A stretch of DNA of 64,000 nucleotides from Amaurobius ferox (Eukaryota; Arthropoda; Arachnida; Araneae; Amaurobiidae), in NCBI GenBank assembly GCA_951213105.1, contig OX578138.1, forward strand, positions 93,216,914 to 93,280,913. The letters run 5' to 3'. Position numbers and translations under genes: made by a program. Positions 41,671 to 60,872 of the stretch are shown piece by piece (positions within the stretch are counted from its first letter, which is position 1; each line of letters begins with the position of its first letter). The notes beneath the pieces are model-generated. The model did no database searches. It was not told where the DNA came from and worked only from the letters and a program-made list of their open reading frames with translations.

Positions 41671-44054
<2,384 letters not shown>

Positions 44055-44800: not shown

Positions 44801-45710
44801 GATTGTTTTTCAAGAAAAGTAGGTCCACGAATGTAAAAGGAAATAGTAGTGTTTGAGTTGCACAATCCTTAAACAATCATAAAATCAATAGTCACCCAAG
44901 GGGAATCAGGCATATTTCATCAGTACGTTGGATTGGTACCACTTGTTAAAAGCTAGATCTTTGAAATGTACTGGGTGCATATACATCTGTATCTATAGTT
45001 TTATCGATATTTATTGTTAACTGCGACTGCTAAAGTTGTAGCCGTTAGCCGTAAAAGCACCGTATGTAGTGTGTACTAAACACGAGAAAATTATTGTAAC
45101 ATTTAAAACTTAAGAGCATGAAAACCAAAATACACTGTACTAGAGTTCTGTGTTCTTTATATTTGTATTTTCATTCAATTTTTTTTTATTTTCCCCACTA
45201 GACATGGTGATGCACAGGGAAGGTATTAGAATCCTGTCGAAAATCGCAACTCGACTTGTCGATGGATCTACTCTTTTCGAGCAGTCTAGAACTCGAAAAA
45301 AATAGTTTTAGCGTGACATCTATGTCTGTGTATCTGCCTGTTTGTCTGTGAGTCTGTAGTCTGCATGTATGTCTGTCTGTGCATTGTATGTATCCACTTT
45401 CGCTGGAAAACTAATTAACCAAATTCTACAACATTTAGTAGATAAGTCTCTTGGGGGTTATCTTGGTGATGGTTAGATTTTGGTACGATTCAGATGAAAA
45501 GAAACTCCCTTTTTTTACAAAATGGCTCATAAAAAAGAATGTAAATAAATCACCCGCGGGATACTTGGGGGCTGATTAGATGTTGATACGATTCGGAAAT
45601 AAAGAACATGCATTATTTTTTTTGTGGGGGGGAGGATGGTCTGAAAAAAAACTGCCAAAATCAAAATTATAAGACTACGGTATACGCACATGTATCAATT
45701 AAATCTTTGT
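44801..45710. other. Spacer with diverged CTGT-rich repeat
   Basis: No gene. Around 45200-45480 a passage (GACATGGTGATGCACAGGGA, GTCGAAAATCGCAACTCGAC, TCTGTGAGTCTG) keeps the same layout as the start of R1 and is probably a distant relative. Confidence 0.45.
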
Positions 45711-46640
45711 TACTTTCCTCACATACAATAATGTATTAGGAAAGTATTGTGACGGGGACGAAAATTCGAATTCGAGTTTTCGACGGGAGAGCACGTTTCA
45801 AGCATCCCTGATCACGAATCGAACATTTTTTATGTCTGTGTCTGTGTGTGTGTGTGCGTGTGTGTGTGTGTCAAAGAGTGTGTGGAGACGATAACTGACG
45901 AACGAATGGACCGATTCGAACGCAATTTGGTACAAAAATCACAATCCATGAATACTCGATGTCTGTTGTTTCTATACGCAATCGAATGTTCAGAACCCTC
46001 CCTAAATTTTCGAATGAAATTTTAAAAAAATCATCAGAAAATCAAAGCCTCTACTAAAGTTACGCAAATAGACATTTCTCATGTAATTTTTCATTAGAAA
46101 TCGATTAACATAAATTTTACAACGTTTTCGAGATATTACACATTTAAAAAATATATCAAAGAATTATATAAAATAAAAAAATATATTTTCTATTGAGAAA
46201 CATGTTCACTTTTCACATGTAATGTCATGCGATAAATTTGGTGACATCATTCTCGTGGATCTAGCTCATTCCATTCATGAAAAAAGATACTTTGAGTAAT
46301 ACTTTGTATTTGAAAGCCAATAGTCATTTATATGCTATAAGAATAAATTATTTCTCCATCATAACGCTTGCCGAGATTTTGGCGAGGAATTTGGCGGAAT
46401 TTTGCCAACTTGGCGACTTTTTTAAATGTTGCCAAATTAAAGAAAATCTCGTCAAATGGATAAAAATGAGGCTATATCAATGAAAATAACGACTAATTGA
46501 CGAAAATTCAATATCTTGGAAAAAATATAAATATCTATTATAAGAATAACCTATTTTGTTTTTACTGTAAAAGTAGTAAATACATTGCATTATATAAGGA
46601 AAATCATGTGCTGCCCACATTAGATTTTTGTATACGTAAT
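45711..46640 (+). repeat. R1 dispersed repeat, copy 7
   Basis: A near full-length forward copy: ACTTTCCTCACATACAATAATG start hairpin (imperfect), AATTCGAATTCGAG block, short TG run at about 45840-45870, conserved middle, end TTATATAAGGAAAATCATGTG. Confidence 0.85.
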
Positions 46641-47059
46641 TTCTGACGACGACAATTAGTGACTCAACATATTTTAGTGTTTTCGTATTTTTGCCATATA
46701 GCTGTTGAAACTGCATTCAGTTAGAAAATGAAAACAGAAATTGAAATACACTGAAAATTCAGTGCAATTTCAAATAATCGTCTGAGTTATTTTGTTCTAT
46801 TAAACTCCATATAATGAATTATAAGAGAAAGAAAGGAAGAATCAATTTAAGTCTGTAGGGAAAGTTGTGTGCTGTCCACATCAGATGTTTTCAGCTTGAA
46901 CAAATATACACACATAAGCATGCATAGGATTACTGAAACTAAAATTTTTCAATTTGACAATTACACTTCTTAAAATATTAACCTGGCAATTTTATACTTC
47001 ATCAATTCCTCACAGTTTTCTATAATAATACTTTCTACATAATGCTCAAAATAACAAAT
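46641..47059. other. No recognisable gene
   Basis: Spacer. It contains a second GTGCTGTCCACATCAGATGT word similar to the R1 end at 46605. Confidence 0.4.
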
Positions 47060-47330
47060 ATTGAAGTTTCAATATGTTACAAAGTACAATATCGATACTT
47101 CTTAAGCTATCGAGAAAGTTCGTGCTTAGACTATGATCACCGAACTCCAAGAGCGTCCTATCACTTCAAAAGAAAAACAAAGCCTGACGACCCCATTTGT
47201 ATTCTTCACTCGCGGAGATAGTTTTTAGTTTTTTTTCCCACTTGGGAAGTTTCAGAAAATGGCAATTTACACCATTTTCTAAAAGTGAAAATTGCCAATT
47301 ACATTTCTTTTAAAACTTCTTTGGCACGTT
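47060..47330 (+). repeat. R2 dispersed repeat, copy 4
   Basis: It carries CAATATCGATACTTCTTAAG, GTTCGTGCTTAGACTATGAT, CACCGAACTCCAAGAGC, CTATCACTTCAAAAGAAAAA and CCACTTGGGAAGTTTCAGAA in the R2 order. Confidence 0.7.
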
Positions 47331-47394
47331 GTCTTATGACTCAAATGAATACAAAGAAAAATGTATAAACATGTGTATATGTTAAGGGTAAAGC

Positions 47395-47565
47395 TCAAAC
47401 TTGGATAAACCTAGGTTTATTCAAGTGAAGTCGCATTAACCGAAAGGGCTGGATAAACCTAGGTTTATCCAACACTACTTGGGTAATCGTAGGTGTATCC
47501 AACACTACTTGGGTAGTCCTAAATTTATCCAACACTACTTGGATAAACCTAAGTTTAGCCAGCCC
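47395..47565. repeat. 30-bp tandem repeat with GGATAAACCTAGGTTTATCC palindrome
   Basis: CCAACACTACTTGG recurs at exact 30-bp steps (around 47471, 47501 and 47531). Two copies of the palindrome GATAAACCTAGGTTTAT and a further GGATAAACCTAAGTTTAGCC flank them. Non-coding. Confidence 0.8.
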
Positions 47566-49190
47566 TGCTCAGATAAAAATTTCGTCTGAGTTTTCCAAGA
47601 GGTATACCAAGTATTGCATCCGATGTACATAAATCAATTGCAGCCATCAACTGACCTTTACTACAGTATTTGAAAAAGTGGAATAATGGACAATTTGTGC
47701 ATTGTATAGCAAAGTTCCTGAGATGTATTAGTTGGTGGTGTCCATACATCGACTCTCTTTACACTTTTAAAAAGTAGTCTATAATTCTACGAATGGAATA
47801 TATAGTAATTAACCCAAGTAGTATACTCAATAAATACCACCAACCTACCTTCCCTACCCTATGCAAAATATTGTGATATTGGACAGTTTGTGTAGTGTAT
47901 GTCAGTGCCCAGAGGTAGTATAAATTGATAGTGGTAATTAATACACTTTTCCTACACTTTTTTAAATCATGGACTGGATTCCTACATATTGGGTTCGTGG
48001 AACTGTCCTCGGGTAGTTTTAATTAGGTAGTAGCCATTGACCTACTTTCACTTTACTTTTAGAAAAAATGAAATACTGTACCATTTGAGGGAAATAGATT
48101 AATGTATCGGAGTAGTTTAACTTAATGCTGGCTCCGAACCGATTATATTAAAATTTAAAGCAATTTTAAATTTCATCAAATAAATTGAGATAATAAATAG
48201 TAAAGCTATACAAATGTCTAACGCAAATTCTGTCAGCTTATTATCAAATGTGTTTTCCTGAAAATTTTCAAAACGGCAAATACATATTTAATGTTAAATC
48301 GGTCAAAACATGAAGAAATTATGTATTGTGGATAAGTATTACGGTCGCCAAAATGCAATAAAGGCAAATATATTTTTTAAAAATTTCTTTTATAAAGTTA
48401 TTTTATTTTTAATTAATTTATCAGCTGCCGGTAAAAAGATAAAATTTAACCATCTGTTTATTTCAGGTGTTTTTGTAAGATGCAGTTTTGAAATACAAAG
48501 AAGTGGAAAGAATATTTTTGGGAATTCTACTTTTGCGATTTTTTTTACTTTTTGGAAATTTTATAATAAGCCTGAGTTAATTACAAAGTGGAATAATTGA
48601 TGATAAATTCAAATTGTTGTCTTAAATGTTTTAATACATGTTTTTTTTTTATTTGATGCGCGCTGGAAAGCGTCCTTGGGAAATATATTTGCTCGAAATC
48701 GTAAATCTTGGTATCACGCGTTAGCTGGGAGCTGCAGGTGTAGCGGGCTGGCAGCCCGGACTAAAGATTTCTCTAATTTATATTAGATCAGTCAGATATC
48801 AGCAATTTTGGTTTCTAAAATTAACGGTGACCTGCCCACATAGCTAGTGAGAACCTGGAATGTGCCAGATACATATTCAATCAACTATTTTTTATAACCA
48901 GCAATGAGCTAATTAGTTTTACACCACTCACTTTTATTCACCAAGTTTTATTTTACATTTTCATCTTCAGTCGGATTATTCCATCAAATTTTGTATGGAT
49001 TAAATTATTTTTGAAGTAACTAAGAATATTATATTTTATTTAATAATTATGTAAAATATTAAAACTGTATACAATAATCATAAAATACTAAAATATGAAA
49101 AGTTAAGAAGTTTGTGGTGGTGGTTACTGGGGCTGTAAAAACTATCGGTTTGGTTTTCATCACTTATGTAAAAACTGTTGGACTCTATGG
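47566..49190. other. Spacer toward the Polinton left end
   Basis: No known gene. A 96-codon open frame at 48310-48600 is lysine- and phenylalanine-rich with no motif. Around 48655-48780 the GC content rises locally (GCGCGCTGGAAAGCGTCC, TAGCGGGCTGGCAGCCCGG). The left end of the Polinton probably lies between here and 49.2 kb, but it cannot be placed without the right terminal repeat. Confidence 0.4.
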
Positions 49191-49204
49191 AAGCAATAGT
49201 AGTG

Positions 49205-49965
49205 TGGGAATGAGAGAGCTGGACCACAGCCATAAACCCCCCATAAAAACCACACCCACTTTTAGAATGTAATGGCTCTATTTTATCCACACAAATGTGA
49301 TTACACAATGGTGTGAAACCCCCATTAAAACCACACCCACTTTTAGAATGTAATGGCTCTATATCACCCATAAAATTTCCACCCACTTTTAAAAAACAAT
49401 GGTGCGAAACCCACCCATAAAATTTCCACCCACTTTTAAAAAACAATGGTGCGAAACCCACCCATAAAATTTCCACCCACTTTTAAAAAACAATGGTGCG
49501 AAACCCACCCATAAAATTTCCACCCACTTTTAAACCCAATGGCTCGCAAAACCCCATAAAAACCGGACCCACTTTTAGAAAGTAATGGCTCTATTTTATC
49601 CACACAAATTCGATTAAACAATGGTTCTCAAAACCCCATTAAAACCACACCCACTTTTAGAATGTAATGGCTCTATTTCAGCCATACAAATTCGATTAAA
49701 CAATGGGGTAAAGACCTCCATTAAAGCTACACCCCTTTTAGAATAGTGATGGCTCTATTTCAACCATACAAATTAAACAAGCAATGGTATCAAAATCAAC
49801 CATAAGCAAGGTTCTAGCGCAAGCACCTTCCGAGAAAGTGATGGCTCTATTTCAACCACACCAATTTTCCGGACCGAACAAGCAAAAAGTCGCTGAGCCG
49901 GAAGGGTACCCCCTACGCATGCCGCAACGTCGCGACCCCTTTTAGAATCTGCGGGTTCATACCCC
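49205..49965. repeat. C-rich minisatellite at the Polinton left end
   Basis: It is built of CCACCCACTTTTA-type units. Four copies of CCCACTTTTAAAAAACAATG-like units step by exactly 47 bp (49382, 49429, 49476, 49523). On both sides are longer units of about 85 bp with CCACACCCACTTTTAGAATG, TAATGGCTCTATTT and AAATTCGATTAAACAATGG. Since 47 is not divisible by 3 and the frames change, I do not accept the minus-strand open frames (49078-49621) as genes. The location next to the first Polinton gene suggests terminal or subterminal repeat DNA. Confidence 0.8.
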
Positions 49966-49977
49966 AACAATATTTTA

Positions 49978-50022
49978 AGCACTTAAAGAAAAGAATTCTA
50001 ATGTAAAGAAAGAACAAAAACC
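49978..50022 (+). promoter_or_regulatory. Early-type leader of the first OB-like gene
   Basis: AGCACTTAAAGAAAAGAATT followed by TAATGTAAAGAAAGAACAAA just upstream of the ATG. It aligns almost base for base with the 41 bp before the polymerase ATG (60938-60978). No TATAAATAA box is present, unlike at the capsid genes. Confidence 0.6.
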
Positions 50023-50325
50023 ATGGAACTGTTGAACAAACTAAACGCACTTAGTACATTGGAAGGAAGTTTCAAGAAGATGCATGAGCTCAATATCGAC
50101 GAAAAATACCCTGTCATGGAAATCAAACAGGTCAAAACCAAATATGGTGACAAACTAGTAGTGGAGTTAGAAGACGGCACAAAAATGTATCTACCGAAAC
50201 GATGCGATGAAAATGCGTCCGACTATATGAAGCTTAATGAGATTAAACCTCTATTCTTTGTATATTTGGGAACTAAAGATGTCGGGAAAGCACTACCAGC
50301 GCAAATGTTTAAATTTGAACAGTAA
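50023..50325 (+). CDS. Small OB-fold-like Polinton protein (paralogue of 60482-60853)
   Basis: 100 aa, function unproven. After a short N-terminal helix ([10 protein letters not shown]) the chain alternates predicted beta strands: [20 protein letters not shown] and then [10 protein letters not shown], a layout that recalls single-strand DNA-binding OB folds. Proteins with this K-T-K-Y-G ... V-x-L-x-(D/N)-x(2)-x-x-L-P-R pattern are common companions of animal Polintons. The gene at 60482 has the same start (LxKLNxLST) and the same strand order. It shares its leader with the DNA polymerase, so an early role near replication is plausible (inference). A perfect hairpin follows the stop. Confidence 0.65.
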
Positions 50326-50331
50326 ATTTTC

Positions 50332-50357
50332 TTTTAATGGTATCATCACCATTAAAA
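50332..50357 (+). terminator. 3' hairpin after the first OB-like gene
   Basis: 10-bp perfect stem TTTTAATGGT / ACCATTAAAA with loop ATCATC, seven bases after the stop codon. It belongs to the class of inverted repeats that close all transcription units of this element. Confidence 0.7.
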
Positions 50358-50530
50358 AATATACAACTTCGTCGATTTTTAGGACCAATCCCGGACATAT
50401 CACATCTTTTCCCTAGAAGATTAACTCTGATTTGACCCTCCTTTCCAGTCAGCCGCTCTCTGATGCCCTTGATGGCTTTCCCTGTGGTGGCATGTGTTGC
50501 CTTTCCCTTGGAGTTGTTGTAAGTCGCTCA
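50345..50530 (-). pseudogene. Fragment resembling RNA polymerase II largest subunit (RPB1 clamp region)
   Basis: On the minus strand an ATG-less open stretch of about 65 codons contains [20 protein letters not shown] followed by [10 protein letters not shown]. The RPB1 family has the near-invariant block KSxxQRLKGKEGRxRGNLMG KRVDFSART in its clamp/switch region, preceded by an ATxKSGRP stretch; here ATTGKAIKG stands at that place. Similarity stops after CDMS. It is not a working gene. It may be a captured host fragment, or a remnant of a viral polymerase subunit. Identified by eye only. Confidence 0.5.
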
Positions 50531-50577
50531 TCGAGAGCACATTGAAAATAATCATTAAAAATTTTTGCAAAATGCCT

Positions 50578-50685
50578 CCCGGTAGGCTCAGAGTATATTC
50601 AATCTCAAATTCGACCCACCAAGGGGCCCTTCTTGATGAGCCGAATTCAAGACCAAATACACTCTGAGCCTACCGCCACTGAGGC
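50578..50685. repeat. Inverted repeat GGTAGGCTCAGAGTATATT
   Basis: GGTAGGCTCAGAGTATATTC on the left pairs with ATACACTCTGAGCCTACC on the right, and AAATTCGAC.. with GCCGAATTC inside. A cruciform-forming inserted element of about 105 bp between two Polinton genes. Confidence 0.6.
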
Positions 50686-50819
50686 TTACAAACAACATAT
50701 AAGGACAACACTGTAAGACTTTGACGCCTAGCGTCGGGCCCGCCCACCACTTATTATCGATGAGTGCTGCTTTATTGGAACAACGACTAAAGCAAGCTGA
50801 CATGTCATTTTTGGCTCGG

Positions 50820-50945
50820 TATAGTTCAATAAACCATCAACCCGGATTGATTAACAACCTGGGAGAGGTCGGGATTTGAACCTGGGACCTAGATGTTAAT
50901 AGGTCTGCGCGCTAACCGTTTTGCCATGGGTACCCATCAAAATAT
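50820..50945 (-). repeat. tRNA-like SINE module inside the Polinton
   Basis: On the minus strand TACCCATGGCAAAACGGTTA GCGCGC, followed by a B box AGGTTCAAATCCCGACC. It looks like an insertion into the left gene gap of the element; the surrounding region 50690-51240 has no recognisable gene. Confidence 0.55.
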
Positions 50946-51309
50946 AAACATACCTTTAATTTAACCATTACACCACAGACGAAAATCTTCAAAAATAGCA
51001 CTTTAAACAAGTTATTTCCCTCTTATAATGTAAGAATTCTTCAAAATATCTATCACTATTGTTTATCTGATTAAAAAATATAGAATAAAATGCTTAAAAT
51101 CAATCGCGAAAAATAAATACTATTCCCCTCCATATAGTGCTGCCATCTCCCTTTGATTCTCGTAATCTCCGCTTTTTTCTACCTCTGAGAGAACTCTTCT
51201 TTAAAGAGGAAGAGATGTTAGTCAAGGTCAGCGCTCGCTACAGACGTTATGAAAGCAGGAAGTAGAAAACAAGGTCGAAACTCTCCAAGCGGAAAATAAT
51301 ACTGCTTCG

Positions 51310-51348
51310 TATTTTATCTGATTTAAAGAAAACAAAGATATAAATAAA
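51310..51348 (+). promoter_or_regulatory. Mixed leader before the 72-aa gene
   Basis: GATTTAAAGAAAACAAAG, similar to the early leaders, runs directly into GATATAAATAAA abutting the ATG, the late-type box. Both expression signals are therefore stacked here. Confidence 0.5.
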
Positions 51349-51567
51349 ATGAATGAAATTGAGTCTGAGATATATCACTATAGAATTCTTTATCAGTATG
51401 TTCAATTAGATGTTTATAGCGATGACATTTCAGAAGTGAAAAAATCTTTAAAAAAGTTGCATGATCAGTTTGAAAAAATTGTCAAACTTATAAAAGAATA
51501 TAATGATCGAAGACAAAACATCGAAGGAAATGTTGGAACTAATAAGAATGTTAGGTCTGGACAATAA
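51349..51567 (+). CDS. 72-aa helical protein of unknown function
   Basis: Highly charged, probably helical and coiled-coil (ISEVKKSLKKLHDQFEKIVK). The last 65 nt overlap the zinc-ribbon gene in another frame. The start is supported by the TATAAATAAA box directly before the ATG. No family recognised. The overlap suggests co-expression, or that this is a leader ORF for the downstream gene. Confidence 0.5.
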   Translation: MNEIESEIYHYRILYQYVQLDVYSDDISEVKKSLKKLHDQFEKIVKLIKEYNDRRQNIEGNVGTNKNVRSGQ

Positions 51568-52072
51568 AGTTACCTCAGACGGAGACTTGAAAACTCATGA
51601 ATGTGAACACAAATATGTAATTCAAAATGATGATGGCTGGTACATTTGCCAAGCATGTCACGAAGAGCTGAGGTATAATCCAAATAAACCCCCTATCAAT
51701 TATCTCGATATGTATTTAAACATGCAGAAACAACAGAGGCGAAAACATCGAATGAAAAATCTGGCTAAATGGTTAGGTTCGCATAACCTACCCTTTGAAG
51801 AAGAAGAGCTTTTGAACGACTTTTCTTCTTTTATCCATAAATATGAGGAGATGTACCCAGAGCGAAAAAACATAATCAGCAAAGACTATATCTTATACCA
51901 TATGTTATGGAAGAGAGGTTACGACATCTATATTTCACGCCTTCAAGTTAAGTTACCTAAACTCAAGAAGACGCTTATTCAGAATGAAGAAATCTGCCGC
52001 ACCATTTTTGGTGCGTTGAATTGGAGTTTTTTACCGGCTGGTACGTTTGAACAACATGTCACGAAGAGCTGA
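51503..52072 (+). CDS. Zinc-ribbon protein resembling VLTF3/TFIIB-type late transcription factor
   Basis: 189 aa. Residues about 32-58 form a zinc-ribbon-like unit with Cys34-x-His36 and Cys49-x2-Cys52 around DDGWYICQAC, reminiscent of the TFIIB N-terminal ribbon. The following helical domain (residues 66-180) has the layout of the poxvirus-type late transcription factor 3: basic helix RRKHRMKNLAKWL, a middle helix pair, then EEICRTIFGALNWSFLPAGT, close to the IxxxIFxxxxWxFxP end of that family. This is recognition by eye, not proof. If correct it would fit the late promoter boxes of the element. The last residues (EQHVTKS) come from an out-of-frame 23-bp repeat of the gene's own ribbon (51654-51676 versus 52055-52077), so the C-terminus looks recombined. 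Confidence 0.5.
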   Translation: MIEDKTSKEMLELIRMLGLDNKVTSDGDLKTHECEHKYVIQNDDGWYICQACHEELRYNPNKPPINYLDMYLNMQKQQRRKHRMKNLAKWLGSHNLPFEEEELLNDFSSFIHKYEEMYPERKNIISKDYILYHMLWKRGYDIYISRLQVKLPKLKKTLIQNEEICRTIFGALNWSFLPAGTFEQHVTKS

Positions 52073-52095
52073 GGTATGACCCCGATAAGTGATTA

Positions 52096-52130
52096 TAATT
52101 TTTAATAGCTTATTCGGCTATTAAAAATTA
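52096..52130. terminator. Shared hairpin between convergent units
   Basis: 14-bp perfect stem TAATTTTTAATAGC / GCTATTAAAAATTA with loop TTATTCG. It closes the plus-strand zinc-ribbon gene and the minus-strand integrase; the integrase stop codon (52130-52128) is part of the stem. Confidence 0.75.
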
Positions 52131-53174
52131 ATTAACTAAATCTTTTTTATCAATCCAGCTAGTCTCAGGATAACCTAACCATTTAACTAGATATTTGTCC
52201 CCTTTCTTTTTGATGATTTTTTCAATCTTATACACATTGTCTTTCTTATCATATTTTACTAATTCATATTCATAAAAAGTGCCTATAACCCCATCATTAT
52301 TTAAATCCTGAACTCTATAAGTGATTGGGTCGGTTTCTAATACTTCAGAAATGACAAATATTTCATCTGTAAAAGTTGCTTGATAACCCCTTCTGAAGGT
52401 AGACTTATATATAGATATTCTTACTTTATCGCCTACCTGGTATTTATGTTTACGTATGACCTTTTCTTTAAACAAATTGCGGTAGACTTCACTACTGTTT
52501 TCTTCTAGACTAGCTTCAACAGGAGTCATTTTTATACTTCTGTGGTATGAGTTGTTGTAATTCTTCACTAATTGATCCAATACATCTATGTATCTTTCAG
52601 TGTTATTTGCACACAAGTAGAGCTTTATTTTATTACCAAGAGTGAGATTAAATCTTTCAACCATAGCAGCTTTTATTTCAACATTTTCTGTTGTGAACCA
52701 TTGGATATTATTTTCTTTGAATAATTTTTGAGTTGTTTTTCCGACGAACTCTAAACCCTTATCTGTTTGAACCCTTTCAGGTATTCTTTCTTTGAAGATC
52801 TTTTTAAATGCTTGAGTTACTTCTTCTGCTGATTTATCCTTTAGAGGAACAGCCCATGCATATTTACTGAAACAGTCAACAGCTGTTAATAAGTACTTGA
52901 TACCATCATTAAACTTACTTCTCGCAAATTTATAGACAAACAGTAAATCAGCTTGCCATTGGTCATCGATATGTGACACGTAAATTCTCCTTCTTTTGAA
53001 CTTACGGATAAGTGGTTTATGCTTTGTGTATACATCCTGTCGGTGTAAAAAATCCGAGACTTCTTTTCGACTTAAACCAGTTTTTCTGCTCAGTACATTT
53101 ATGCCACAAAATCCTGTTTCGGGATCGTAGTAAACCTTTTCGGGGCAACCCTTCTCAGTTACCCCTTCAGCGGT
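52128..53174 (-). CDS. Polinton integrase (retrovirus-like, with chromodomain), expressed by -1 frameshift
   Basis: It inserts the element into host DNA. Counting from the GTG at 53186, an N-terminal zinc-less helix region (YYDPETGFCGINVLSR) precedes the RNase-H-fold core with the catalytic triad Asp80 (WQADLLF), Asp142 (VQTDKGLEF) and Glu177 (AAMVERFN; 34 residues between the last two). A C-terminal chromodomain follows (VYKIEKIIKKKGDKYLVKWL GYPETSWI). The length is normal for the family. There is no ATG in frame anywhere near the N-terminus: the open frame merges in the -1 register with the upstream PLA2 ORF at a T TTT TTA site (53180-53174). The coordinates given start at the first codon after the slip (about 348 codons). 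As a fusion, the product would be about 516 aa. Splicing or GTG initiation are less likely alternatives. Confidence 0.9.
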   Translation of the reverse strand, partial: TAEGVTEKGCPEKVYYDPETGFCGINVLSRKTGLSRKEVSDFLHRQDVYTKHKPLIRKFKRRRIYVSHIDDQWQADLLFVYKFARSKFNDGIKYLLTAVDCFSKYAWAVPLKDKSAEEVTQAFKKIFKERIPERVQTDKGLEFVGKTTQKLFKENNIQWFTTENVEIKAAMVERFNLTLGNKIKLYLCANNTERYIDVLDQLVKNYNNSYHRSIKMTPVEASLEENSSEVYRNLFKEKVIRKHKYQVGDKVRISIYKSTFRRGYQATFTDEIFVISEVLETDPITYRVQDLNNDGVIGTFYEYELVKYDKKDNVYKIEKIIKKKGDKYLVKWLGYPETSWIDKKDLVN

Positions 53175-53180
53175 AAAAAA
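53142..53180 (-). promoter_or_regulatory. Programmed -1 ribosomal frameshift signal
   Basis: On the minus strand: slippery heptamer T TTT TTA (53180-53174) in the correct phase of the PLA2 frame (CGT TTT TTA), an 8-nt spacer CCGCTGAA (53173-53166), then a stem GGGGTAAC (53165-53158) pairing with GTTGCCCC (53149-53142) through seven Watson-Crick pairs and one G-U, with an 8-nt loop TGAGAAGG. The PLA2 stop codon TAA (53161-53159) lies within the stem. The heptamer is the one used by HIV-1 gag-pol. Confidence 0.85.
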
Positions 53181-53677
53181 CGGCACTTCTTAGAACCACA
53201 ACCCACACAAATTCCTTTCAACATAGGTCTAGCGTTTTTAGAGGTGACATGCTGTTCATCTTTAGTGTCGGTGTGTGTTTTACATTTGAGACAATATATT
53301 TTTGAGCCCATTCCAAATGTCTTCTTTGCTTTGATAATAGGCTTCACAACAGCTCTATCTAGCCTTTCACGAAAACTTGGATTGGGAATGTCGTCCAATT
53401 CTTTAATCATGTTTGAGTCACACACTTTGTTTCTGGTTTCGGTATCTTTGTTTTTAATGTAGCACACGTCATGTTTATAGGCACTATCATCAACCCTATT
53501 AATAGGCTTACTCCATTCTTTGTATGTTAAATCGGGGTTCAGTCTAGTTTTTCCTCTGAGCAGTTGAGTTCCTGGTCCTGTAAATTGATGCCCTGGCAGA
53601 TGCATTTCAAACGGTAAATTATTAATTGCTGCGTTAACAACACCTTTTCCTTTCTTGCAAGTCTTTTTACCACACAT
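53159..53677 (-). CDS. PLA2-domain / zinc-ribbon virion protein
   Basis: 172 aa. Residues 27-90 match the phospholipase A2 domain known from parvovirus VP1 and adintoviruses: calcium-loop-like FTGPGTQLL and the catalytic His69-Asp70 dyad in DDSAYKHDVCY. Such domains help particles cross endosomal membranes. Residues 127-168 form a zinc ribbon (Cys129-x2-Cys132 ... Cys157-x2-Cys160) with the ARPMLKGICVGCG pattern of DUF5679. The start follows the box TATATATAAATAA directly before ATG. The 0-frame ends with RFLPLKG, just after the slippery site from which the integrase is reached. This would make the protein the Gag-like half of a fusion. Confidence 0.85.
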   Translation of the reverse strand: MCGKKTCKKGKGVVNAAINNLPFEMHLPGHQFTGPGTQLLRGKTRLNPDLTYKEWSKPINRVDDSAYKHDVCYIKNKDTETRNKVCDSNMIKELDDIPNPSFRERLDRAVVKPIIKAKKTFGMGSKIYCLKCKTHTDTKDEQHVTSKNARPMLKGICVGCGSKKCRFLPLKG

Positions 53678-53698
53678 TTATTTATATATAAAAAATTA
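53678..53698 (-). promoter_or_regulatory. Late-type box of the PLA2 gene
   Basis: TTTTTTATATATAAATAA immediately precedes the ATG on the minus strand. Confidence 0.65.
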
Positions 53699-54085
53699 TT
53701 TACTCACAAATTGATATCCATTCAGCAGGGTTTGTTTCATATATTTTTCTCTGGGTAAGTAGACTAAATTATTGATGAAATCCTCCTCTCGCTTATACAC
53801 TTCCTCTTCTGATAGGGTATTCGATTTGTATGAATTGAGCAGCTGTTTGTAAAACTTGTAAGACTGTTTGTACTCTTCTTTCCTTTCCGCGATATTCAAA
53901 GCTTTATCAAGAACTTCAACAATACCGACGCTTAAGCTCAGAGCAGCTAAGGGAACAAGTACAAAAGCTGATAAACCCAATGAACTTAAAACGAACTTGC
54001 TAACGGTTATAGTGACACTAATTTTATGGTAGTGGTGGTAGCTCTTTCTATATACGTAAATTTTCTTTTGCAAGTATTCTTCCAT
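53696..54085 (-). CDS. Small membrane protein of the Polinton
   Basis: 129 aa. N-terminal basic segment (KKIYVYRKSYHHYHK), a long hydrophobic stretch at about residues 28-58 (FVLSSLGLSAFVLVPLAALS) that can form one or two membrane helices, then a charged helical tail. Small proteins with this layout sit next to the packaging ATPase in many animal Polintons; their function is unknown. Its first 38 nt overlap the end of the ATPase gene in another frame. It has its own late-type box (CCTATAAATAAAG) inside ATPase coding DNA. Confidence 0.7.
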   Translation of the reverse strand: MEEYLQKKIYVYRKSYHHYHKISVTITVSKFVLSSLGLSAFVLVPLAALSLSVGIVEVLDKALNIAERKEEYKQSYKFYKQLLNSYKSNTLSEEEVYKREEDFINNLVYLPREKYMKQTLLNGYQFVSK

Positions 54086-54812
54086 CTTTATTTATAGGGG
54101 TGAAATATTTTTTCCGATATCTCAGAGCCGGATTAACTAAATCAAGCATAAAGAAATCATACGGCTGTTGCATGCACTTTTTATATAATCTACTGAATTC
54201 TTCTTTTGTCAAACTACCATCTATCTCTCTTATGATCTGTTGAATCTCCCTCGGTTGAATATTAAAAAATATCAAGTAATTACAGTTTCTTCTGATAACA
54301 ATGGGTGTTCTATAATAAGATTGAGAAAGATAAATGATTGAGGCGTTTTTCTTCCGACCTCTGATGAAAAAATCTTCTATGCTCCTCTGGTCCTTGTCAG
54401 TCATGCAGTCATCAAAGACAACAACATTTTTACAAGATGGGTCCAGGTCATCCACTTTTATAAATTCTTTTGTATCAGAGGAGAATAAAGTTCCTTTCTT
54501 GCCGAATCTTTCATATAACTCTAGGATAATTTTCTTCTTCTTTTTGGGGTACTTTATCGAGTCTATATCCACACCCTCAAACATTGTGTACTTTTCTTTC
54601 AGTTTGCCATACTTGGGTTCGTACATATCTTTTGCACAAACGAACAAATTATCAAATTCGAGATAGTCGTATATAAAATTCAGCAATAAGTTCGTTTTAC
54701 CAGTACCTGAAGCTCCAGCGATTAGAAGTCTGAAAGGGTGTTTAGGTAATAAATAATGTTGATTTGCATCGACAAGTTCTTCTGCTTCTGTATAATTTTT
54801 AATTTGAATCAT
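54048..54812 (-). CDS. DNA-packaging ATPase (FtsK/HerA, A32-like)
   Basis: 254 aa, the usual size for Polinton packaging ATPases. Walker A GASGTGKT at residues 33-40 and Walker B VVVFDD at 130-135 are intact, with a conserved arginine-rich SIEDFFIRGRKKNASIIYLS segment after it, including the SQSY sensor-like motif. The enzyme would pump element DNA into preformed capsids. It is the first gene of the minus-strand unit ATPase > membrane protein > PLA2 > integrase and starts from a divergent promoter shared with the gene at 54890. The ATG follows CATTAAATAAAG. Confidence 0.95.
   Translation of the reverse strand: MIQIKNYTEAEELVDANQHYLLPKHPFRLLIAGASGTGKTNLLLNFIYDYLEFDNLFVCAKDMYEPKYGKLKEKYTMFEGVDIDSIKYPKKKKKIILELYERFGKKGTLFSSDTKEFIKVDDLDPSCKNVVVFDDCMTDKDQRSIEDFFIRGRKKNASIIYLSQSYYRTPIVIRRNCNYLIFFNIQPREIQQIIREIDGSLTKEEFSRLYKKCMQQPYDFFMLDLVNPALRYRKKYFTPINKDGRILAKENLRI
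54086..54100 (-). promoter_or_regulatory. Late-type box nested in the ATPase gene
   Basis: CCTATAAATAAAG directly before the ATG of the membrane-protein gene, while also coding for ATPase residues. Confidence 0.55.
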
Positions 54813-54889
54813 CTTTATTTAATGTTAAAAATTTGCTTCAGTAAAAATATAATTTGCTTAAGTAAAATTTTTCTTGCATAATAATAAAG
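54813..54889. promoter_or_regulatory. Divergent promoter between ATPase and coiled-coil genes
   Basis: 77 bp. Two direct repeats, TTTGCTTCAGTAAAA and TTTGCTTAAGTAAAA, lie in the middle. Each start codon has its own box, ATTAAATAAAG toward the ATPase and GCATAATAATAAAG toward the plus-strand gene. Confidence 0.6.
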
Positions 54890-55642
54890 ATGAATGCTAT
54901 ACAAAAAGAACGAAATAAGAAATTAAGAAAGGAAGTTGAATATGAACTTAAAGTTTATAAGCTTCAGGCTGAAATTAGAAAAAACAACGAACAACAACTA
55001 GAGCAAAAATTAGGTATCCAGAAAGCACTATCGGACTTTCACAAGCCTGTAACTGAAAAGCTACAAGAACAAGAAATTAATCGAAAGTTGAATATTCAGG
55101 CTATAAAAGATGCTGTTGATCACATTCCTCTAGCTATTGAACCGCCTTTAGAAGTCTATGATTTTGATAAAAAATTGGATGTAGAGTTTTTAGAGAAAAA
55201 TAACTTTCCAAGACCCTCAAAATTGTACCATGAGACCAAGGAAACTTTGCAAGAAATTATGAGTAAAGTAAATGATACTTACCTAAAAATGTCTCGTCAA
55301 AAAGGAAACATTATGAGTCAGATGTCTCGAATGACTAAAAAGGATGAAGAAAGAGAAGATCGCTTATTAGCTAAGGTTGATTATTTGAGAGATCATATGA
55401 CTACGTTAGGAGATTATCGGGATCGACTCAGAGACTTGCAAAGAAAAGAAATTTATATCGGTAAAGGAGTAGAAGACAAAATGGAAATTTTAGCCCGATT
55501 GACTGATAAGATATGTAAAGGATCCAAAAGTAAAAAGTTACACAATCAAGTCGTTGATTTATTGGATGCATTGTTGAGAGAAGGAACTATGACCAACGAG
55601 CAAGTAAAACAATACTACAAAAATTTTACATTAAATAAATGA
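54890..55642 (+). CDS. Coiled-coil Polinton structural protein (PY-like)
   Basis: 250 aa, strongly charged. Residues 1-50 and 105-190 are predicted coiled coil (KKLRKEVEYELKVYKLQAEI; DYRDRLRDLQRKE). The C-terminal part IYIGKGVEDKMEILARLTDK and LLDALLREGTMTNEQVKQYY has the layout of the conserved C-terminus of a Polinton protein of unknown function (GKG, then a short helical domain with IxxxQ). It is probably a virion or core component. Its stop overlaps the next start (ATGA), implying coupled expression. Confidence 0.75.
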   Translation: MNAIQKERNKKLRKEVEYELKVYKLQAEIRKNNEQQLEQKLGIQKALSDFHKPVTEKLQEQEINRKLNIQAIKDAVDHIPLAIEPPLEVYDFDKKLDVEFLEKNNFPRPSKLYHETKETLQEIMSKVNDTYLKMSRQKGNIMSQMSRMTKKDEEREDRLLAKVDYLRDHMTTLGDYRDRLRDLQRKEIYIGKGVEDKMEILARLTDKICKGSKSKKLHNQVVDLLDALLREGTMTNEQVKQYYKNFTLNK

Positions 55643-56034
55643 GTAATTACATAAAAACTAAAATACATTTAAGCGATCATCAGATTGCTAAGCTAAAATC
55701 TGCATACCAGAAAGGAGAAGAAGTATCTCTACAAATAGATAAGACAAAAGCCCCCAACAAAGATATACATTTAACTCGAACACAGATAGCTCAAATTGGG
55801 AAGGGGAAGCGTATCACTATCAGTAAGACGCAGCTCCAGAAAACGGGTGGTTTTCTACCTTTTCTATTACCTGCGTTAATTGCTGGGGCCAAGGCTTTAG
55901 CACTAGGTGCTGCAAGTGGGGCGGCTGGATATGGAGCAAAGAAAGCTTTGGAAAAAATTTCAGGATCTGGATGTGCAAAAAAAAGACCCATTGGAAAGGG
56001 CGTCTATCAAAACTGGGAATATCAGACGAAGTAA
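55639..56034 (+). CDS. pVI/pX-like membrane-active minor virion protein
   Basis: 131 aa. A basic N-terminal half (HLTRTQIAQIGKGKRITISK) is followed by TQLQKTGGFLPFLLPALIAG and an Ala/Gly-rich hydrophobic segment (residues 72-100), then a basic tail. ISGSG at residues 107-111 fits the adenovirus protease consensus (M/I/L)xGxG, and the protease gene follows immediately. The arrangement recalls adenovirus pVI, whose amphipathic segment disrupts membranes. The ATG sits in ATTAAATAAATG. The end overlaps the protease gene by 64 nt. The family match is by eye; it is a common adintovirus/Polinton product. Confidence 0.75.
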   Translation: MSNYIKTKIHLSDHQIAKLKSAYQKGEEVSLQIDKTKAPNKDIHLTRTQIAQIGKGKRITISKTQLQKTGGFLPFLLPALIAGAKALALGAASGAAGYGAKKALEKISGSGCAKKRPIGKGVYQNWEYQTK

Positions 56035-56453
56035 TTGAACAAAATATGAAACATGAACAGGGGTTTAGGGGCGTCTTTACTTCCGATCTGTTGCCTAAAA
56101 AGATGAGTCGGTTTGAAAACGGTATTATTAATCTGGACATTGTCACAGGACCTGGTACGCACTGGGTCTGCTACTATAACGATCCTAAAAATAACTTTGT
56201 TGAGTATTTTGATCCTTTTGGAGAACACGTCTACAAAATTCATCCTAACATTAAGAAGTATCTACTGACTTCTGGAAAGAAAAATATCGGGTGTAACTCG
56301 AGCTTTCTACAGCACCCTGCTTCCGTCAAATGCGGCTACTTTTGTATGAAGTACATTCGTGAAAGAAACAAGGGTAAGCCAGTTGTAGATGTGCTATATT
56401 CTTTTACCCAAGAACCCAGCGACTTCAATGAAAAAAATGTTCTCTATAAATAA
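55971..56453 (+). CDS. Adenovirus-type maturation cysteine protease (adenain family)
   Basis: 160 aa. The catalytic set is complete: His64 (GPGTHWVCYY), Asp81 (EYFDPFGE), Gln114 (SSFLQHP) and Cys121 (VKCGYFCMKY). FRGVFTSDLLPKK and GIINLD near the N-terminus are also typical. It would cleave virion precursors at (M/I/L)xGxG or (M/I/L)xGGx sites, and such sites occur in the neighbouring proteins at 55639 and 57143. The chosen ATG lies inside the previous gene. Its stop is embedded in the late box of the next gene (TATAAATAAAATG). Confidence 0.93.
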   Translation: MCKKKTHWKGRLSKLGISDEVIEQNMKHEQGFRGVFTSDLLPKKMSRFENGIINLDIVTGPGTHWVCYYNDPKNNFVEYFDPFGEHVYKIHPNIKKYLLTSGKKNIGCNSSFLQHPASVKCGYFCMKYIRERNKGKPVVDVLYSFTQEPSDFNEKNVLYK

Positions 56454-56454
56454 A
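56441..56454 (+). promoter_or_regulatory. Late-type box of the minor capsid gene
   Basis: CTCTATAAATAAA abuts the ATG at 56455 and at the same time ends the protease frame (TAT AAA TAA). It decides the start of the minor capsid protein. Confidence 0.65.
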
Positions 56455-57135
56455 ATGGTTCTATTGATATTAGATTCTAAAAACGCGGAAAAATCAGAAG
56501 ATTTTACGATTGAATACACTAGACCTTTCACCTTTAAACAGATTGCCCTTCAGTCCTTTTCGATGTACGTTTCATGGGACAATATCAAAGATGAGGAATT
56601 ATCATACTTTGATGGTCAGCAGTGGTTAAATTTGACGATACCAGATGGAAATTACACTATCAAGGGGCTGAATCGTTACATGATTAATTTTTTTGGAAGC
56701 GATCCGCCGATACAATTCGGAATAGTGGAGGAACGACAACGAATAGCCATTAAGTTAAAAGACGGGTATAAGATCGATTTAACGAAAACCAAAAACCTGC
56801 ACAAACTTTTAGGTTTCGAGCCTAAAATCCACGAAGAGCTTGAACAAGTAGGAAAGTACATTGCTGACTTATCTGGGGGAAACGATAACATTTATATACA
56901 TTGCGATGTCGCAGAGGGGGCGTATATCAACGGTTTCAACTCTACAAACGTCATCTATTCATTTACAAACAGTAATCGTCCAGGTAGTCAGATTATAAAA
57001 TCATTTGACAAACCTCTGTTTTACCCTGTTCGAATGGATAGTGTTTACCGAATCAGAATGCAAGTAACCAATCATAGAGGTGATTTAATACCGCTCAATA
57101 AGCAAGAAGTACAATACAATTTTATCGCCCTATAA
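56455..57135 (+). CDS. Penton-like minor capsid protein
   Basis: 226 aa. Starting at MVLLILDSKNAEKSEDF, the chain begins with IEYTRPFTFKQIALQSFSMY, the strand arrangement found in Polinton and adenovirus-like single-jelly-roll penton proteins, then ISxLNxYM-type helix (IKGLNRYMINFF), LLGF, and the C-terminal RIRMQVTNHRGDLIPLNKQE VQYNF. An in-frame ATG 66 nt upstream exists, but the TATAAATAAA box and the family length favour the one chosen. LSGGN in the middle also resembles a protease site but is probably fortuitous. Confidence 0.85.
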   Translation: MVLLILDSKNAEKSEDFTIEYTRPFTFKQIALQSFSMYVSWDNIKDEELSYFDGQQWLNLTIPDGNYTIKGLNRYMINFFGSDPPIQFGIVEERQRIAIKLKDGYKIDLTKTKNLHKLLGFEPKIHEELEQVGKYIADLSGGNDNIYIHCDVAEGAYINGFNSTNVIYSFTNSNRPGSQIIKSFDKPLFYPVRMDSVYRIRMQVTNHRGDLIPLNKQEVQYNFIAL

Positions 57136-57142
57136 TAAAGAA

Positions 57143-57313
57143 ATGAATAAACACAGACTTCAAAGAAAGAGTAAGAAGATACAAGGAAGAGGGTTCTTTT
57201 CCGACGTACCAGTCCTGCAGGAGGCCGAATTAGAAGGTAAGTATGTGCAGGATAAAATAAAGGAGATATTATCAAAGCAGAAAAAACATGGAGCTGGACT
57301 AAAGTTTTTCTAA
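57143..57313 (+). CDS. Small basic virion protein (core peptide-like)
   Basis: 56 aa, very basic at the N-terminus (HRLQRKSKK). IQGRG at residues 13-17 is a good adenovirus-protease site, and the end is KKHGAGLKFF. In size, charge and cleavage site it resembles the pX/mu precursors of adenoviruses, which bind DNA in the core. It lies 7 nt after the minor capsid gene, with the box CTATAATAAAGAA before its ATG. A terminal hairpin follows directly. The function is inferred. Confidence 0.65.
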   Translation: MNKHRLQRKSKKIQGRGFFSDVPVLQEAELEGKYVQDKIKEILSKQKKHGAGLKFF

Positions 57314-57318
57314 ATTCG

Positions 57319-57344
57319 ATTTAATAGCCATATAGCTATTAAAT
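57319..57344 (+). terminator. 3' hairpin closing the 54890-57313 unit
   Basis: 10-bp perfect stem ATTTAATAGC / GCTATTAAAT, loop CATATA, starting six bases after the stop. Confidence 0.75.
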
Positions 57345-57357
57345 TGAGGAGAAGAAA

Positions 57358-57377
57358 AAAAAATTATATTATAATAA
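57358..57377 (+). promoter_or_regulatory. Late-type box of the major capsid gene
   Basis: AAAAATTATATTATAATAA directly before the ATG. Confidence 0.6.
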
Positions 57378-58727
57378 ATGAATAAAATATTTGAATTAAA
57401 CAGCACCAATTATTATTACGATGATGACATCGAAAGTTTCGAATATAGAGAGGTAAGGCATGAAAATAGTGATAATTCTATGGAAAATGCCTCTTACCAT
57501 TTCTTTATTCAAGACACCAACGCCAACATTTTATACTCTAACGGTTATTTACAGCAAAAATTGAAAATTGTTAACAACGATGGTACTGCCATAGTGAATG
57601 ATAATGTAGCTCTCGTGAATGGAGGTGGTTTGATCAATGCTAACAGGTTTACATTAGGAACCACTGAAATTGAATCCAACATAAATTATTCCGCTCTTAT
57701 GCGACAAGTGTTGGGCTTAATACATTTTACGCCTGACTATTCTTCTGCCGAAGCTACAAATATGCTGTTCTACACTGATACGTCGGACACAGCTGATAGA
57801 GAACGCTTGAAATATGATGGCACGTTAGTAGATACCACAAAGATTACTGAGTTTTTCGAAAAATTCGGAATTAATGAGAACCATAACCAGGGATTTACAG
57901 AAAGAAGCGAATTCACTAAAAATAGCAAGGTTGTAACTATATGGATCCCACTAAAGTACGTGTTTGATTTCTTCCGTGAATATAAAAAAGTAATAACGGG
58001 GTTCCAAGTCAAATTTGAGTTCCAGAGAAATCACAGTCTAAATATGCTGTACACCAACGAGCAACATAAGATCTATAAAGTCGTTGTAGAAGATTTATCA
58101 CTCTGGCTACCTTACGTACGATTTAAAAATGCGGCGGCTTCAATATTTAACGAATTAAAGTTATCGAATAAGGATGTAGAAATAAACTGGAACCAACACA
58201 GCATTGTAAAGTCTAATATTTTCTATAAAAACGCTAGCGGCTCTTATACCATAAAAGCTACTTCTGATGAAGTCTTATCTTTGTACGTAATTCCTCAGTA
58301 CACTGAAAGATACGAAAATCCGAAGCACAATAACATGCTGTTTGATAACTTAGATATGACGGAATGTTGGTTAATGATCAACAATGTAAAAGTGCCAACT
58401 GTCAGTTACATGATGGATTTTGAGAAAAGTGATTATAATCGATTATACACAGCCTTTTTGGAATCTGGACTCAACACCATCACGTCTGAAACAGGTTGTA
58501 TGGTCAATTATTCGAATTTTGGTAAGTTGTATCCAATCATCTGCTTTAATCTCTCTCATCATCAAAACCATACCGATACGAATAACTTAGTGATTGAGTT
58601 TAACTGGAGGTTAAGGAACGCTGCCCCCAAAGATTATGTTTTTTACTTCATCTTAAAAGAGCACAAGAAATGCTTCTTAAATATTAATAATCAAAATATT
58701 ACCATGATCAAGACTTTGAAATTATAA
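57378..58727 (+). CDS. Major capsid protein (hexon-like, double jelly-roll)
   Basis: 449 aa, the size of adintovirus hexon-like proteins. The central segment IWIPLKYVFDFFREYKKVIT GFQVKFEFQRN is the conserved inter-barrel region of this capsid family (IPL... FF ... I.L.R), and the C-terminus ends with LVIEFNWRLRN and FYFILKEHKK strands. It would form the trimeric capsomers of an icosahedral shell together with the penton-like protein. It is transcribed alone, between a late box and its own hairpin. No damage seen. Confidence 0.85.
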   Translation: MNKIFELNSTNYYYDDDIESFEYREVRHENSDNSMENASYHFFIQDTNANILYSNGYLQQKLKIVNNDGTAIVNDNVALVNGGGLINANRFTLGTTEIESNINYSALMRQVLGLIHFTPDYSSAEATNMLFYTDTSDTADRERLKYDGTLVDTTKITEFFEKFGINENHNQGFTERSEFTKNSKVVTIWIPLKYVFDFFREYKKVITGFQVKFEFQRNHSLNMLYTNEQHKIYKVVVEDLSLWLPYVRFKNAAASIFNELKLSNKDVEINWNQHSIVKSNIFYKNASGSYTIKATSDEVLSLYVIPQYTERYENPKHNNMLFDNLDMTECWLMINNVKVPTVSYMMDFEKSDYNRLYTAFLESGLNTITSETGCMVNYSNFGKLYPIICFNLSHHQNHTDTNNLVIEFNWRLRNAAPKDYVFYFILKEHKKCFLNINNQNITMIKTLKL

Positions 58728-58751
58728 GCCATTTTTATAGTCCATTTTTAA

Positions 58752-58776
58752 TTTTTATAGTCCATGACTATAAAAA
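58752..58776 (+). terminator. 3' hairpin after the major capsid gene
   Basis: 11-bp perfect stem TTTTTATAGTC / GACTATAAAAA with a 3-nt loop CAT. A spare copy of the left arm (ATTTTTATAGTCC) lies 20 bp upstream. Confidence 0.75.
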
Positions 58777-58779
58777 ATT

Positions 58780-58796
58780 ATTTTATATTTAAATAA
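58780..58796 (+). promoter_or_regulatory. Late-type box of the fibre-like gene
   Basis: TTTTATATTTAAATAA abuts the ATG. Confidence 0.6.
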
Positions 58797-59561
58797 ATGG
58801 CTGCCTACTACCCGCTTTTCGATGAAGAATTAGAACAAGGACCTCCTGGTATTCCAGGCATAGGGTTTAAACTCACACATGATGGTAACTACGATATGGA
58901 AAATAAGATCTTGAAAAACTGTCAGACACCGATTGAGAGTCGGGATGTAACTACTAAAAGTTATCTGGAAGCTGAGTTAATTCGTAACTCCACTACCGTC
59001 ACTCACGCGCTGAGGGTTGAACTACGAGAAGAGATAGCAAAGATTATGGAAGGTTTAGATCAGAAGTACCTGAGTTTAGGTGATAGAAGACCCATTGACG
59101 CTAAAGGTAAAAGGATAGGCAATGTCGCTGACCCTATTGAAGACATGAATGCGGTTAATAAAAAGTACTTGGAAAACTATGTTGACAATAAAGTATGTTA
59201 TGCAACCACCACATCAGGATACATAACTATTAGACCTAGTACCAATGCGAATGCCGTTATTTTTACGAAGTTTTCCGGTGATGCTTTGAACTCAGATTGT
59301 AAATTCGCTCGGGACGGTTTTTTTAGACTGGGATTGTACCTTGATCCTCAAAAGATAATCGATGAATTAATCGTTGTTAAGTTATACATTAATAACAAGC
59401 AGTACGTTCACAAGATAAAAGTAGCCACTGAATTCGTGTTAATTCTCGGAGAGGTTAAAAAAGATGACCAATTAAAAATTTTCTTACGATGTGATGCTGA
59501 GTTCACAGTTCAACCATTTCTAAAAATTGAAGAAATCAAGTGGACACTCCAGCTGCCATAA
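58797..59561 (+). CDS. Candidate fibre/spike protein with collagen-like and tail-fibre-like segments
   Basis: 254 aa. A short collagen-like piece GPPGIPGIG (residues 15-23) is followed by two units of a motif typical of phage tail-fibre shafts: MENKILKNCQTPIESRDVTT KSYLE and KGKRIGNVADPIEDMNAVNK KYLE (L/I-x-N-x(4)-P ... D-x-x-(N/T)-K-x-Y-L). The C-terminal 120 residues alternate hydrophobic and polar residues like a beta-rich head (IIDELIVVKLYINNKQYVHK). The overall shaft-plus-head design suggests a trimeric surface fibre; the receptor, if any, is unknown. It lies right after the major capsid gene. Function inferred. Confidence 0.6.
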   Translation: MAAYYPLFDEELEQGPPGIPGIGFKLTHDGNYDMENKILKNCQTPIESRDVTTKSYLEAELIRNSTTVTHALRVELREEIAKIMEGLDQKYLSLGDRRPIDAKGKRIGNVADPIEDMNAVNKKYLENYVDNKVCYATTTSGYITIRPSTNANAVIFTKFSGDALNSDCKFARDGFFRLGLYLDPQKIIDELIVVKLYINNKQYVHKIKVATEFVLILGEVKKDDQLKIFLRCDAEFTVQPFLKIEEIKWTLQLP

Positions 59562-59562
59562 A

Positions 59563-59582
59563 AGAAATTGTACATATAATAA
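59563..59582 (+). promoter_or_regulatory. Late-type box of the W-repeat gene
   Basis: AGAAATTGTACATATAATAA abuts the ATG. No hairpin separates it from the preceding gene. Confidence 0.55.
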
Positions 59583-60374
59583 ATGGCGTGGAACGAAATA
59601 TCAAAAAGCGGTTTGTCGGAAGAACAAATCAGAGTTAGTAAAAATTATGTTAACTGGTCGCTCATAAGTCAATATACAACTTTATCGGAAGAGTTTATCG
59701 AAGAATTCGAAGGTTTGGTAAACTGGATGGTCATCTCTCAGTATCAGAAACTTTCGGAGCCTTTTGTAGAAAAACACAAAGGTCTATTAAACTGGTACTA
59801 TACATCCAAATATCAAGTTCTATCAGAGGATTTCATGGATAGAAATACTGAATATTTAGATTGGGAAGTAGTTTCCAGATATCAGATAATGTCAGAACCC
59901 TTCCTGGATAAACATGCTTCCAAATTAGATTGGAGAATGGTTTCTCAATTCCAAGTACTCTCAGAAGAATTTATTCGTCGGCATATAGACAAAATCGATA
60001 TGGAACTCATTTGCGTCAAACAAAAGCTCACTGAAGATTTTATGACGGAATTCGCAGATTACCTTGAATGGGGTAGAATTGTTCAATGGCAAACCTTTAA
60101 CGAAGATTTTATTATGAAAAATCTGGATCGTATAGATCTTTGTCACCTCATGACTTATAAAGCCCATTTGCTCTCAGATACTTTTTACGAACTCCATTTT
60201 AAAAAGCTGGTTTGCATCCTTCTGACAAACATATGTAATAGATTTGTGGTACAATATGAACCTATCGACATACCTCCCGAGTTGGGTAAAAATGATCCTA
60301 TCGACATACAACCTGAGTTGGGTAAAAATGAACCTGTCGACATACAACCCGAGTTGGACAAAAATGAACCATAA
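59583..60374 (+). CDS. W-x-x-I-S-x-Y-Q repeat protein
   Basis: 263 aa built of about eight repeats of 22-23 residues with the pattern LSEEFIxxxxxLxNWxxISQYQ, for example LSEPFVEKHKGLLNWYYTSK. Such repeats are known from large DNA viruses and some phages; their role is not established. The C-terminus holds three 12-residue repeats of the type PIDIQPELGKNE. The first repeats are closest to each other, the later ones (DMELICVKQKLTEDF) diverged. It is probably co-transcribed with the fibre-like gene and followed by a perfect palindrome. Confidence 0.7.
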   Translation: MAWNEISKSGLSEEQIRVSKNYVNWSLISQYTTLSEEFIEEFEGLVNWMVISQYQKLSEPFVEKHKGLLNWYYTSKYQVLSEDFMDRNTEYLDWEVVSRYQIMSEPFLDKHASKLDWRMVSQFQVLSEEFIRRHIDKIDMELICVKQKLTEDFMTEFADYLEWGRIVQWQTFNEDFIMKNLDRIDLCHLMTYKAHLLSDTFYELHFKKLVCILLTNICNRFVVQYEPIDIPPELGKNDPIDIQPELGKNEPVDIQPELDKNEP

Positions 60375-60394
60375 ATTTTTATATTCATAATAAT

Positions 60395-60420
60395 ATTTAA
60401 TGGTTGATCAACCATTAAAT
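60395..60420 (+). terminator. Perfect 26-bp palindrome after the W-repeat gene
   Basis: ATTTAATGGTTGA directly followed by its reverse complement TCAACCATTAAAT, about 20 bases after the stop. Confidence 0.75.
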
Positions 60421-60463
60421 GTTTAGATACCCTTTGTTACCTTCCTCAAGTTTGAATATATTT

Positions 60464-60853: not shown

Positions 60854-60872
60854 TAGATGTAGATATGACTTT

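Follow-up and report, generated by a model that had tools for sequence, protein, structure and literature searches.

In HIV-1 and other retroviruses, gag and pol are joined by a −1 frameshift at U UUU UUA plus an RNA structure. The junction described here resembles that system in the heptamer, its phase, a stem that follows after 8 nt, and the joining of an upstream protein to an integrase-bearing protein. It differs in that it lies in a double-stranded DNA element, has PLA2 plus a zinc ribbon upstream in place of Gag, has integrase alone downstream, without protease or reverse transcriptase, and has a virion role that is only putative. In adintoviruses, the same virus group, Buck et al. (2024 preprint, PMC11071296) used KnotInFrame to predict hypothetical −1 frameshifts, the same class of mechanism, in other genes (Penton and Hexon-adenain); the accessible part of that preprint does not mention the PLA2-integrase junction. 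Insect Mavericks from Spodoptera cells carry a PLA2-bearing CAP and an integrase with a chromo domain and are thus an arthropod case of this gene set; the portion of the article consulted handles them as separate ORFs, and its mentions of frameshifts concern errantiviruses (PMC5803895). Frameshifting at the PLA2-integrase junction is not described in the accessible portions of PMC5803895, PMC3671162, PMC8097293, PMC10812802, and PMC12567637, and the searched portion of a recoding review (PMC5009743) makes no mention of polinton or maverick. In the literature searched, of which coverage was incomplete, with few subscription papers and some sources available in part, a frameshifted PLA2-integrase did not turn up, PMC11071296 holding the sole related claim; the mechanism is of a known kind, and its use at this junction is apparently new to that literature.

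The window, i.e., the whole 64,000-nt stretch of DNA analysed, contains on its minus strand an A32-type ATPase, a 131-aa ORF, a PLA2 plus DUF5679 zinc-ribbon gene, and an integrase frame (Table 1), followed on the plus strand by ORFs including an adenain-like protease and a double-jelly-roll capsid protein. On sequence grounds, the element is of Polinton/adintovirus type (Eupolintoviridae). Pfam scores were above the cut-offs for the rve integrase (53.4 bits; cut-off 32.6), double-jelly-roll capsid protein (37.8 bits), A32-type ATPase (46.1 bits), and both domains of the PLA2/ribbon gene (PF08398, 40.5 bits, cut-off 23.9; PF18930, 55.2 bits, cut-off 27), and under them for the adenain-type protease (PF00770; 19.1 bits, cut-off 21.3) and the chromo match of the integrase frame (16.3 bits, cut-off 25.1). 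The D-D-35-E residues of the integrase are D81, D143, and E178. Judged by eye, the long ORF that spans 60937 to the end of the window resembles protein-primed DNA polymerase B; a long inverted repeat was absent from 44001-64000, and the element extends beyond the window end. The best named protein matches were from orb-weaving spiders (Araneus, Trichonephila), with 81-88% identity, which makes a spider the likely host.

Table 1. Features of the PLA2-integrase junction, in window coordinates.
Feature	Position	Strand	Remarks
PLA2 (PF08398) plus C-terminal zinc ribbon (DUF5679, PF18930) gene	53159..53677	-	172 aa, starts with ATG; 0-frame product
rve integrase frame with D-D-35-E and a weak chromo match	52128..53189	-	353 codons between stops
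Slippery heptamer T TTT TTA	53174..53180	-	PLA2-frame reading CGT TTT TTA
Spacer, 8 nt	53166..53173	-	CCGCTGAA; 8 nt in family 2 too
Hairpin, 9 bp, 6-nt loop, likely stimulator	53142..53165	-	-16.0 kcal/mol
PLA2 0-frame stop TAA	53159..53161	-	within 5' arm of the stem

The two frames overlap by 31 nt (53159-53189, minus strand), with integrase in the −1 frame. On re-reading the sequence, we recovered the ORFs, −1 overlap, in-phase heptamer, and 8-nt spacer where an earlier note on this DNA had placed them. The heptamer has the form X XXY YYZ in the 0-frame phase, and the −1-overlapping downstream frame lacks a start of its own: as the same note had claimed, the integrase ORF has no ATG start, its earliest ATG being codon 176, within the catalytic core. 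A stop codon stands in the integrase frame 3 codons 5' of the slip site. The PLA2 protein ends in K-K-C-R-F-L-P-L-K-G-stop, while the −1 frame from the slip site reads F-F-T-A-E-G-V-T-E-K-G-C-P-E-K-V-Y-Y-D-P and continues through the D-D-35-E integrase. In the hairpin, GGGGUAACU (53165-53157) pairs with GGUUGCCCC (53150-53142) on the minus strand; the stem, previously put at 8 bp, has one pair more, and it does cover the 0-frame stop, as had been stated. Given R-F-L and the element's own codon use, the probability of T TTT TTA is 0.016. The 32-nt hairpin ranks first among 2,659 overlapping segments of the 2.7-kb minus-strand block, and the 57-nt junction piece folds only moderately better than dinucleotide shuffles (z = −1.92; 9 of 200 shuffles folded as well or better). 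The decisive evidence for the junction signal is the comparative part.

We compared the junction across the 3.56-Gb host genome, in which copies of one family are near-identical and do not count as independent evidence. Family 1, to which the window belongs, has at least 115 scored copies, and its integrase frame was free of stops in 115/115; in L001-L030, the PLA2 frame was intact (30/30) and the heptamer and spacer were invariant, with single stem variants in L016 and L028. Family 2 was identified through P0006; it comprises at least 41 rows whose frame has 356 codons, uninterrupted in 41/41, and its integrase is 78% identical to that of family 1. Its junction reads AGT TCT TTT TTA, followed after the spacer by a 5-bp stem (GGGGU/ACCCC) that contains the TAA. 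A possible pseudoknot in family 2 (CUCAG/CUGAG) arises in 3.3% of shuffles that preserve stem 1, and none of this type was found when looked for in the family 1 junction. An apparent extra family with a 359-codon frame (L089-L092) was rejected, its junction being that of family 2. Family 3 was identified through P0016, which shares 65% identity with family 1; it has at least 117 rows and the junction ACT TTT TTA GGA ATT TAA, with weak folding 3' of the heptamer and a TAA just 5' of the slip site in 18 of 20 copies.

While the integrases of the three families are ∼65–78% identical, the heptamer is the same at 7/7 positions, compared to 22 of 38 upstream bases that vary; its conservation goes beyond protein constraint. 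The layout is conserved. The spacer, for which ∼5–9 nt before a stem-loop or pseudoknot is usual in −1 signals, is 8 nt in families 1 and 2, and the structure ranges from 9 bp (family 1) through 5 bp and a possible pseudoknot (family 2) to weak (family 3). A universal strong stem, expected at first, was ruled out by the weakly folding family 3, and the hairpin would be a stimulator in the lineage of the window and not a fixed part of the signal. Separately, intact integrase frames of Polinton type proved very abundant in this host genome (at least 115, 41, and 117 rows for families 1 to 3); together with 957 exact family-3 sites, these copy numbers point to recent bursts.

Relatives were compared as proteins only. 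A motif search among the matches listed gave 23 GYCG-type integrases, comprising 11 informative proteins, 4 in-frame ribbon fusions without FF, 7 that start too late, and P0021, which was dropped as its FF derives from a fused ATPase model. In all 11 informative relatives, FF was followed by a residue of an A-type codon (T, I, K, S, or R) and stood 8 to 23 residues N-terminal to the YYxP motif. In the other frame, the ribbon ended in FL in 28/30 PLA2-ribbon proteins, the exceptions being P0138 (FV) and P0147 (FI), versus 2/85 in other layouts (0/9 ribbon-integrase fusions and 2/76 ribbon-PLA2 proteins; row P0096 dropped), with a Fisher p of 4e-22 computed ignoring relatedness. Given that FL in one frame, combined with FF and a following A-type codon in the other, fixes T TTT TTA, P0006 and P0128 (contigs both 7,495, likely the same contig) would by deduction fix the heptamer from both frames.

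These ribbon ends also bear on splicing, in which a spliced mRNA would give the integrase its own start and the T-run would serve as a polypyrimidine tract at the 3' splice site. T6 is indeed pyrimidine-rich, and TTTTTTAG of family 3 resembles an acceptor. However, no AG directly follows the run in families 1 and 2 (TTTTTTACC, TTTTTTAAAG), and such a tract needs neither TTA over CTN or TTC nor a fixed phase, whereas FL is the rule in two-frame proteins (28/30); we consider splicing very unlikely. A free integrase would instead arise if ribosomes initiated internally or at a non-AUG codon, or resumed translation past the PLA2 stop; this reading could draw on a GTG codon just 5' of FF in the window and on the many relatives of other clades with integrase called from an ATG near YYxP. 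Yet the GTG position is K in P0006, indicating that GTG is not kept, no ATG precedes codon 176, and both FF and FL are left unexplained, making a free start highly improbable. Gene calls of some relatives start with M just 5' of FF, where family 3 has TTG.

Elsewhere among the relatives, the same domains are joined in a single frame. P0020 encodes PLA2, ribbon (ending in FI), and integrase in one frame, as confirmed by Pfam, with the domains and order of the predicted frameshift product but no slip site needed. P0036 and P0061 are in-frame PLA2-integrase proteins, also Pfam-confirmed, that combine the PLA2 and integrase domains as here but, being in one frame, do not need a slip site; in-frame ribbon-integrase fusions are present as well. 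In P0048, P0057, and P0093, we observed an adenain-like protease, scoring at or below the Pfam cut-off, fused in frame to integrase and a chromo domain; the protease part was not found by Pfam in P0114. A tree was built from 41 integrases, 12 of them FF or frameshift rows; 11 of these 12 fell in one group of 18, P0020 included, with support of 93/78, which is not strong. P0090, a distant integrase that starts with SFFI, was placed well away from that group, with ribbon- and protease-integrase fusions, which hints that the slip site may have arisen twice. No relative was found in the viral contig collection by single-protein scans (two queries) and alignments A2 and A1, alignment A3 retrieving there only L031 and L032, ribbon-only matches that were set aside; no relative was found in the genome contig collection, and the phage collection gave two remote transposases and nothing closer.

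The length of the T-run was read in 126 junctions, with T6 followed by A in 119, T7 in 6, and T5 in 1. Among the 112 junctions of the three families chosen by integrase similarity, 110 had T6 and A, one had T7 (L083), and one had T5 (L094, in which a ribbon cysteine is also broken). The remaining 14, chosen by their match to the in-frame fusion P0020 or their position in a long open frame, comprised 9 T6 and 5 T7. In the T7 copies (L083, L118-L121, L124), the PLA2 and integrase frames were merged or nearly so; four of the five among these 14 had open frames of 489-508 codons, and the fifth, L119, has a stop. Genome-wide, exact family-3 sites numbered 957 for T6, 5 for T7, and 0 for the reversed control, in counts that overlook variant copies of T6 and T7 alike. 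Given these 5 sites versus 957, the T7 copies are rare variants, either real or homopolymer assembly errors, and T7 as a second maintained state was rejected. Run length within a family is no evidence by itself, given that a control T6 run elsewhere in the family-1 integrase was also constant (T6 in 56/56 loci covering it); what is informative at the junction are the phase, the A after the run, and the identity across families.

The T7 copies and the in-frame relatives are what could be expected if the frame break were a decayed or mis-assembled in-frame fusion without function. However, T6 is the common form at exact family-3 sites, and both frames were open in the copies examined (115/115 and 41/41 for integrase, 30/30 for PLA2), leaving this a negligible prospect. 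The strongest alternative is transcriptional slippage, in which RNA polymerase would add a U on T6 and the edited mRNAs would carry PLA2 and integrase as a single frame. The site is a T6 run, and the T7 copies, with both genes in one open frame, show that a single extra U would also join them. Against it, the run is short for slippage by polymerase II, and slippage does not depend on a following A, a particular phase, or a hairpin 8 nt away, whereas A followed the run in 110/112 junctions and, by codon logic, in 11/11 relatives; we regard slippage as unlikely.

In contrast, −1 frameshifting accounts at once for the phase of the heptamer, the A that follows T6, the bias toward FL, the lack of a start, and the closeness of the stop. 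The weak structure of family 3, the T7 and T5 copies, the FV and FI ribbon ends, the gene calls starting with M, and the modest z count against it. On balance, we propose that a −1 frameshift at T TTT TTA very probably yields the integrase, which would be made solely as the C-terminal portion of a fusion with PLA2 and the zinc ribbon. The −1 frameshift from PLA2 into integrase put forward in the earlier note is thus strongly supported by the phase, the lack of a start, the heptamer in three families, the proteins of relatives, and the in-frame fusions elsewhere. The HIV-type stem-loop it had described applies to family 1 and, with a shorter stem and possible pseudoknot, to family 2, but not to family 3, where it is weak. 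Likewise, the comparison with relatives that it had suggested showed that the overlap and heptamer are kept while flanking bases vary, the strong stem being missing in family 3.

According to the proposed mechanism, a minority of ribosomes would shift by one base in the 5' direction on reaching T TTT TTA, shortly ahead of the PLA2 stop, and the Phe tRNA in the P site and the Leu tRNA in the A site would then re-pair on UUU UUU. Most ribosomes would terminate and yield the PLA2 protein alone, while a few would produce the fusion, predicted from the frames at 168 + 348 = 516 aa. The PLA2/ribbon part could then tether the integrase to virion proteins or the genome, and the tethered integrase would enter the particle at a fixed minor ratio, like retroviral Gag-Pol. 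Parvovirus VP1 carries PLA2, an analogy for a virion role of this domain. It is plausible that PLA2 plays the part of Gag and carries the integrase into the particle, a delivery step that we base on the analogy with parvovirus VP1 PLA2 and Gag-Pol and on the recurring in-frame fusions. In a wider proposal, which we put forward tentatively and with slightly more doubt than belief, this would be a Gag-Pol system in double-stranded DNA viruses: the bulk of a membrane-breaching PLA2/zinc-ribbon virion protein would be accompanied by a fixed small share extended to a packaged PLA2-integrase, which would enter with the genome and integrate it. Other lineages would achieve the same through hard-wired PLA2-, ribbon-, or protease-integrase fusions, so that carriage of integrase within a fusion protein may hold generally for Polinton-type viruses. 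A search of the PLA2 and integrase proteins for an adenovirus-protease-type site found none, which counts against the frameshift-fusion explanation as far as integrase release is concerned.

A frameshift fusion in three high-copy families would make the delivery of integrase to an incoming DNA-virus genome directly testable, and the retroviral ratio trick would appear in an unrelated class of viruses. There is also a warning for annotation, as start-less integrases of this type get shortened or mis-modelled in gene sets.

A second −1 overlap was observed on the plus strand, where a 131-aa ORF (55639-56034) that carries the adenovirus-protease-type sites QIGKG and ISGSG extends into the adenain-like frame (55827-56453). 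The overlap contains A AAA AAA in phase at 55977-55983; given that the protease frame has an ATG at 55971, just 5' of this run, a frameshift is not needed there.
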